Part shown: in pieces, positions 16,419-18,202 of the stretch
Layout of the letters: each line of letters starts with the position of its first letter
How positions within the stretch are numbered: the stretch's first letter is position 1
Assembly: GCA_012960305.1 (NCBI GenBank)
Contig: DUBM01000014.1
Coordinates: 434,001 to 498,000, forward strand
Reading direction: 5' to 3'
Length of the DNA stretch: 64,000 nt
Source: Gammaproteobacteria bacterium
GTDB taxonomy: Bacteria > Pseudomonadota > Gammaproteobacteria > Pseudomonadales > Pseudohongiellaceae
Program-made: the position numbers and the translations under genes
Notes under the pieces: model-generated
The model's database searches: none
What the model was told of the DNA's origin: nothing
Seen by the model: the letters and a program-made list of their open reading frames with translations, nothing else

Positions 16419-16778
16419 ATGGCAAAAATACTCTTTAAATTGCGTAATGTCCCCGATGATGAAGCTCAGGATGTTCGTGAAATCTTGGAATCCAATAACA
16501 TTGAGTATTTCGAAACCACGGCGGGAAACTGGGGTGTCTCAGTACCAGCGTTGTGGACTAATAATACAGAACACTATGATCACGCTCGATCGCTAATTGA
16601 TGAATATGAGTTGAATCGTTCGGTGGCGATAAAAAAAGAATATGAATTAGGCCGGCAAAGAGGTGAAACTAGAACGATGTGGAATAGTTTTATTGAGAAT
16701 CCTGTACGCTTTGTTCTTTACTTGGCTTTAATAGGAGGCGTGCTATTTCTTTCCTTGCAGGTTTTTCTTTCATTTTAG
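16419..16778 (+). CDS. DUF6164-like small membrane protein
   Basis: MAKILFKLRNVPDDEAQDVREILESNNIEYFETTAGNWGVSVPALW...; C-terminal TM segment. Confidence 0.7.
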   Translation: MAKILFKLRNVPDDEAQDVREILESNNIEYFETTAGNWGVSVPALWTNNTEHYDHARSLIDEYELNRSVAIKKEYELGRQRGETRTMWNSFIENPVRFVLYLALIGGVLFLSLQVFLSF

Positions 16779-17040: not shown

Positions 17041-17069
17041 TTTACACTCACAATGATGTGTTATATAAA
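17041..17069 (+). promoter_or_regulatory. Putative sigma70 promoter of orphan RNA: TTTACA (17041-17046) - 17 nt - TATAAA (17064-17069)
   Basis: Near-consensus hexamers with optimal 17-nt spacing immediately upstream of a structured segment. Confidence 0.6.
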
Positions 17070-17075
17070 AACCAC

Positions 17076-17306
17076 TAACTTTTGCTAGCGGTTCTTTCGG
17101 GGGGAACCTCCTAGCAACCATTGCTACCCTGGCAATCCAAGGAGGTGATCCCATTAATAGCCAATCTATGAAGGGAGCCTCCAGTTACTCTTGCTAGCAT
17201 TTGCTTGCTGAGTGATTGGAGGGAAATTTCTGGTTAGAGTTGAGATTTCTGAGCTCCCATAAAGTAGAAGATCCCGCTGACGAATTAATTCGTCAGCGGG
17301 ATTTTT
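17076..17306 (+). ncRNA. Candidate orphan structured small RNA (about 230 nt) ending in an intrinsic terminator
   Basis: Stems: GCTAG/CTAGC + GGTTC/GAACC (17084-17115); ATTGCT/GGCAAT (17120-17136); 13-bp CCTCCAGTTACTC/GAGTGATTGGAGG (17178-17190 / 17210-17222); enclosing GGGAG/CTCCC (17173-17177 / 17254-17258); GAAAT/ATTTC (17223-17227 / 17245-17249); terminator 17271-17306. Confidence 0.6.
17271..17306 (+). terminator. Rho-independent terminator, 16-bp perfect palindrome followed by T-run
   Basis: ATCCCGCTGACGAATT|AATTCGTCAGCGGGAT then TTTT. Confidence 0.9.
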
Positions 17307-17488: not shown

Positions 17489-18202
17489 ATGGAAGAATTA
17501 AACAAATTGAATAAGCTCTCCAAAGGCGAGCGCTTTCGGGGGCATCTCGGCTTTTTCTGGAAAGAAAATAGCCAATTCTTCCTATTACTGTCCTGTATCG
17601 TTTTCTTTAAAAGCGCGATTGCTGACCTTAGCTCAATTTCCGGCGCCTCCATGCAGCCATCCCTTTTAGATGGCGATAAAGTCTGGGTGAACAAATTAGC
17701 TTATGATGTAAAGATTCCATTTACCGAAATTTCCCTGGCTGAAGTCTCTGACCCTCAACGAGGAGACGTCGTCATTATTGACTCCAAGAAAGCGGCCAAG
17801 CGTCTAGTTAAGCGAATTATTGGTGTCCCCGGTGACACTATCTATATGCAAAACAATTCGTTGGTTATCAACGGTATTGCCGCCAACTATGAAGTTTTAT
17901 CGCGCGATGAAGATACGTTGATTATTCTCGAAGAACTGCCAGACCGTTCCCATCAAGCCAAGCTTTCCCGCCACTTTATTAACCGTTCCAGTCGATCTTA
18001 CGGTCCAACAGTGGTGCCTGAAGATCAGTACTTCGTGCTTGGAGATAATCGTGATAACAGCGCTGATAGCCGGGTGTACAGTTTTGTACCTCGTGGTGAA
18101 ATCATTGGCCGGTCCAATTCCGTAGTCTTCTCCCTTGACAGTGATAACCGCTATTTCCCTCGGGGTGAGAGATTCCTCGCTGGAATTGACGAAATTCAGT
18201 AA
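17489..18202 (+). CDS. lepB: Signal peptidase I
   Basis: SGASMQPSLLDGDKVWVNK, RGDVVIIDSKK...LVKRIIGVPGD, FVLGDNRDNSADSR. Confidence 0.95.
   Translation: MEELNKLNKLSKGERFRGHLGFFWKENSQFFLLLSCIVFFKSAIADLSSISGASMQPSLLDGDKVWVNKLAYDVKIPFTEISLAEVSDPQRGDVVIIDSKKAAKRLVKRIIGVPGDTIYMQNNSLVINGIAANYEVLSRDEDTLIILEELPDRSHQAKLSRHFINRSSRSYGPTVVPEDQYFVLGDNRDNSADSRVYSFVPRGEIIGRSNSVVFSLDSDNRYFPRGERFLAGIDEIQ

Follow-up and report, generated by a model that had tools for sequence, protein, structure and literature searches.

A conserved small RNA of Pseudohongiellaceae and relatives, probably a structured mRNA with a mini-ORF behind a full Shine-Dalgarno and a non-AUG start

The 64,000-nt stretch of DNA analyzed here (the window; GCA_012960305.1, contig DUBM01000014.1, positions 434,001-498,000 of the forward strand; Pseudohongiellaceae) contains an element that is probably a stand-alone, structured small mRNA of ~235 nt, with throttled initiation at an AUH start codon. 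Comparison of homologs shows a separate transcription unit with a covarying stem, a conserved frame, and a start codon that is conserved as non-AUG in one clade and is AUG in outgroups. The unit is delimited by a sigma-70-like promoter on the forward strand (17041-17069; TTTACA at 17041-17046, a 17-nt spacer and TATAAA at 17064-17069) and by an intrinsic terminator with T-run (17270-17306, forward strand). Nearly all homologs keep the promoter at a constant distance from the ribosome-binding site, and most have the terminator; a generic promoter scan made no call here, owing to the final A of TATAAA. A first-pass annotation had located the promoter, the dense pairing and the terminator correctly, and its view of an independently transcribed, structured RNA outside known families is supported by promoter and terminator conservation, covariation and absence from Rfam. 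That annotation overlooked three features described below: a short frame that is conserved, the complement to the 16S rRNA tail and a loop pairing.

A scan of the window against Rfam 15 yielded no family at gathering score, in line with the claimed absence of known RNA motifs. Lax matches over the gap were chance miRNA and snoRNA hits far below cutoffs, and no Rfam match was obtained at the element in 18 loci with distant members. The downstream-peptide/glutamine-II model matched neither the window nor these 18 loci, and ARAGORN reported 0 tmRNA genes in the window. Phage or plasmid matches to the element were not found; viral carriage was considered, and the single viral match proved to be an ordinary long gene. 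No literature on this RNA or peptide was found among open-access papers. The element represents a conserved RNA gene absent from Rfam 15. As it illustrates, very short genes within structured RNAs are missed by RNA-family searches and also by gene finders, for which AUC is not a candidate start.

The RNA had been described as an orphan, a label that is wrong, as its homologs form a family. Among 72 other genus genomes, blastn identified the element in 58; blastn combined with a covariance model placed it in 68 of 84, the window's own included (~80%), with one full copy per carrier. Named carrier records include uncultured Pseudohongiella and OM182 bacteria; conservation is thus a feature of marine bacteria of the Pseudohongiella/OM182 type, with sporadic occurrence outside them. 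Sixteen genus genomes, two of them single-contig, lack the element, no remnant of a degenerate copy was found near lepB in six genus genomes without a match, and one further genome (L098) harbors a diverged copy missing the conserved stop. A chance structure or an assembly artefact is refuted by this conservation, promoter and terminator included, and hardly deserves further consideration.

The conserved upstream neighbor, outside the element, is a DUF6164 gene (16419-16778, forward strand; Pfam PF19661, E 5.5e-41; synteny), and the next gene downstream in the window is a lepB-type signal peptidase (17489-18202, forward strand; Pfam PF10502). An open reading frame that overlaps a hairpin and is followed by a terminator resembles an attenuator, and with lepB next in line the element could be read as a leader that controls lepB or another downstream gene via leader-peptide translation. 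This is very improbable. In most genus relatives the next downstream gene runs convergently and encodes a helicase whose N-terminal part is a DEAD domain (Pfam, synteny), and the element is therefore no lepB leader; lepB adjoins it in the window because the intervening helicase gene is absent, and the setting in a gap upstream of lepB, mentioned initially, is incidental. A consistent co-directional downstream gene is lacking, and genomic neighbors differ completely between clades. Conserved promoter and terminator and the convergent neighbor, all judged from sequence only, agree with an independent transcription unit. Several relatives have the large helicase gene in fragments, and the window, like a few other sequences, lacks it (L066, L068, L072, L074, window), which in the sequences compared is lineage-specific decay of that gene.

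The energy of the predicted fold is far below that of shuffled sequences (z = -7.8; 0/200 shuffles as low). Without the terminator z is -3.3, and folded alone, the 3′ three-way element reaches -6.4 and the 5′ part -0.7, so that the low energy comes mainly from the 3′ element and the terminator; the 5′ stem is therefore supported by covariation and not by energy. This stem, P1 (17084-17094 with 17104-17115, forward strand), corresponds to the bulged stem noted at 17084-17115. In a genus alignment made without structure, P1 plus loop pairing scored 0.32 compared with 0.23 for shuffled alignments, and 94% of cells pair within the genus compared with 34-56% for slid versions. Among 48 family members the P1 covariation score was 0.75, compared with 0.26 shuffled and at most 0.11 slid, in an alignment that was fitted to P1 and is biased towards it.

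The P1 loop (CGGGG/CAGGG, 17098-17102) has been assigned to a putative pseudoknot with CCCTG (17127-17131, forward strand), as its CAGGG is able to pair with CCCTG 25-30 nt downstream. Within the genus 99% of these cells are paired, mostly invariant and with exchanges restricted to A-U/G-U, and the pairing is also present in distant members. These near-invariant positions are consistent with a pairing that covariation does not prove. Another small stem, P2, around CTACCCTGG (alignment 51-54/62-65), was dropped, as its pairing is lost in relatives by eye; CCCTG instead fits the P1 loop. The minimum-energy fold of the window has the CCTCC of P1 sequester the Shine-Dalgarno; this pairing was likewise rejected, since the partner is not conserved and the covarying P1 excludes it. 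In folds without the pseudoknot the Shine-Dalgarno is often paired (mean unpaired 0.20-0.27), which weighs against the small-mRNA reading, although a consistent partner is absent.

The 3′ three-way element (17173-17258, forward strand) comprises P3 (17173-17178/17253-17258), P4 (17179-17190/17210-17221) and P5 (17222-17230/17242-17250), all on the forward strand and judged by fold and pair counts. It contains the 13-bp stem of the first-pass annotation as the hairpin 17179-17190/17210-17221, its GGGAG/CTCCC stem at 17173-17177/17254-17258, and the second hairpin. Covariation had been expected in both stems. For GGGAG/CTCCC this was not borne out, as P3 is invariant in the genus save one cell and hence uninformative; P4 does vary, mostly on one side, and the strongest covariation lies in the 5′ stem. 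P5 receives moderate support on a plain MAFFT alignment, and a hairpin equivalent to that of the 3′ element is seen in other clades. The 5′ strands of P3 and P4 coincide with the end of the mini-ORF, so the 13-bp stem is the end of the reading frame folded back. An antiterminator pairing of GGGGAGCC with the 3′ arm of the terminator, considered in one clade, was set aside as G-U-rich.

Between the pseudoknot and the 3′ element lies AAGGAGGTGATCC (17139-17151, forward strand), a full Shine-Dalgarno whose 13 nt are perfectly complementary to the genus 16S 3′ end GGATCACCTCCTTA, which was read from another genome of the same genus; the 16S 3′ end was not found in the window's own assembly. AAGGAGGTGATCC is near-invariant among homologs. 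Seven nucleotides past its GGAGG, at normal start-codon spacing, an ATT opens a mini-ORF (17153-17197, forward strand) that ends in TAG. It would encode INSQSMKGASSYSC, presumably beginning with fMet. Genus members display a conserved near-cognate AUH start behind an extended Shine-Dalgarno (ATC 50, ATT 8, ATA 1, ATG 0), and a conserved in-frame AUG or GUG start upstream was not found among them. Of the 58 genus sequences reaching the frame end, 50 stop at codon 15 and 6 at codon 16, with TAG, TAA and TGA all in use; of the other forward frames, frame 1 shows scattered stops and frame 2 is closed early. Across the family, 93 of 95 distinct members stop within codons 12-16 (TAG 50, TAA 35, TGA 10), and frame length changes, in the genus as well as between L147 and L178, are multiples of three. 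From this conservation we infer that the mini-ORF is translated. The label "noncoding" is accordingly probably wrong, given the fixed-start frame of 13-15 codons and its conserved in-frame stop; the structured, independently transcribed RNA stands.

Amino-acid conservation is less pronounced. The core IxGASG recurs across clades, and Ser/Cys at position 5 is written TCT, AGT or TGT. The synonymous share of codon differences in the AUH clade is 0.28 in frame compared with 0.20-0.21 out of frame; among ATG members it is no higher in frame than out of frame. Strong purifying selection on the peptide is not demonstrated by this comparison, and with amino acids weakly constrained, constraint at the RNA level may account for part of the conservation. 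In its extreme form this would make the element a purely structural small RNA, the open frame being a by-product of conserved structure and of a UAG/UAA motif conserved close to the hairpin loop. Weak amino-acid constraint and an ORF end buried within paired P3/P4 suit such a reading, which we nevertheless consider unlikely in view of UGA in 10 of 95 members, the in-frame length changes, the fixed start spacing and ATG in outgroups.

Members outside the genus were identified in two ways. A covariance model built from the genus detected members in four further genera of the class, with ~270 genera sampled. A pattern scan of GTDB genomes returned at least 119 rows and added Ectothiorhodospiraceae, Pontibacterium and Nitrospinota among the matches listed; eleven of the rows listed are chance matches as judged by eye. 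The pattern fixed GGGG, CCCTG, AGGAGGTGAT and CAT, whose conservation in that set is by construction, and placed no constraint on reading frame, stop codon or the final base of the start codon. The first codon of the 119 distinct sequences among the matches listed is ATC in 93, ATT in 14, ATG in 10 and ATA in 1, with one misparse. In several distant members an ATG occupies the same position, and the peptides are related (for example MSNECINGASGGTC and MLSDSIRGASGVIC; further MSNDSMCAASGATC, MSNRCIIGAPGGTC, MLSDSTRGASGVIC, MSNLLVEHTPGVTC and MSNGCIEVLTG). A member of the ATG type occurs in the cultured Pontibacterium granulatum. A 1.3-Mb genome of another family displays an ATT start (ISIYLKSGSGGFAF). 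Another gammaproteobacterial clade, comprising K189A and OM182 records, shows AUH starts with INSQSIKGASELN-type frames, whose stops fall within the hairpin loop or close to it. The AUH clade possesses the full 13-nt 16S pairing and ATG members often 10-11 nt, as if the longer pairing compensated for the start codon.

These start codons also bear on a reading in which the RNA is a noncoding 30S decoy, its 13-nt complement binding the 16S tail and holding the subunit at an inefficient codon as a sink or sensor of free subunits. The near-invariant complement and the strict avoidance of AUG in the genus are what such a decoy would exhibit. Several distant members, however, have a normal ATG, and the in-frame stop is conserved 13-15 codons downstream; a decoy that is never translated would have no use for a stop codon, which makes it the less likely option, and we regard this explanation as improbable.

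Most carriers are metagenome bins, and some taxon labels are doubtful, among them those of near-identical elements in an Armatimonadetes (L147) and a Chlorobiota (L178) record and of a Pseudohongiella-type element in a Planktomarina record (L117). In the Armatimonadetes record a ksgA/rsmA-type 16S dimethylase gene (L147:7618-7998; Pfam RrnaAD) follows immediately downstream of the element, and the Chlorobiota record seemingly has the same start. The target of ksgA/rsmA-type dimethylases adjoins the 16S tail with which the element could pair. ATG-type members L094, L096, L148, L167 and L154 share GTTGACGCC/GTTAACGCC or similar, running across the stop codon into the adjoining bases, a motif conserved in ATG members and not seen in the AUH clade.

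For the favored small mRNA, the following sequence of events can be proposed. The 5′ end would fold into P1, whose loop would pair with CCCTG just upstream of the ribosome-binding site, and Shine-Dalgarno pairing with the whole 16S tail would recruit 30S subunits. AUH start codons are discriminated by IF3. Holding the start at AUC, AUU or AUA would therefore result in weak initiation, with an expected check by IF3, such that 30S subunits would be captured very well and commitment would be poor; we infer that IF3 limits initiation at the mini-ORF. Ribosomes that do initiate would translate some 14 codons into a peptide of the (M/I)xSxSIxGAS type and would terminate within the P3/P4 hairpin, which they would open in the process. 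The output could be the peptide or a translation-dependent refolding of the RNA, and more broadly peptide, RNA refolding or 30S binding may each serve as such. It is unusual for a whole clade to avoid AUG in a frame that follows the strongest possible Shine-Dalgarno, and this arrangement leads one to expect that a separate small RNA is translated, dependent on IF3, into a peptide of 14 residues. A more speculative extension, which we consider unlikely, is an undescribed RNA family, spread over several phyla, whose pseudoknotted small mRNA would report translation-initiation stringency, as a sensor of initiation fidelity or of free 30S subunits. Pairing with the full 16S tail would then ensure maximal 30S loading, commitment at AUH would depend on IF3, and the few ribosomes passing would open the P3/P4 hairpin and change RNA activity.

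Among known systems, SgrS/SgrT, SR1/SR1P and RNAIII are dual-function or peptide-coding small RNAs with ordinary start codons and known targets. The element resembles them as a stand-alone RNA with promoter, terminator and short reading frame, and differs in sequence and structure, in its ~14 codons, its AUH start and a Shine-Dalgarno pairing with the full 16S tail. tmRNA, too, is structured and has a short reading frame preceded by a pseudoknot; unlike tmRNA, the element has a Shine-Dalgarno and a start position and is without a tRNA-like part. The downstream-peptide/glutamine-II riboswitch also sits in a short-ORF context. The likeness to this riboswitch (PMC6698751) is a pseudoknot upstream of a short reading frame, whereas the element has no Rfam match and occurs in different phyla, and its putative pseudoknot is formed simply by a stem-loop and CCCTG. 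Conserved AUU/AUA starts accompany extended Shine-Dalgarno motifs in S. aureus as well, with ~10% of AUG expression (PMC13009471). There the combination concerns ordinary protein genes, cvfC1, ccpN and infC (PMC13009471), as opposed to a tiny ORF in a structured small RNA of other phyla. For Streptomyces sigR, IF3 is reported to repress a non-canonical start codon (PMC5472188).

A different, transcript-like small unit was observed in genus g47 of the same family (L097, L243, L244, L245). It comprises a TTGACA-type promoter, conserved AATTCAACTGAAA, AAAAGGAGGTGATCCA ATG, a 26-33-codon frame (MSSDMCRVSTGIGVMVQFGFYGRRQT) and then a GGGAGCC..GGCTCCCTTTTTT terminator, with P1/CCCTG absent, and is possibly a sibling of the element family.
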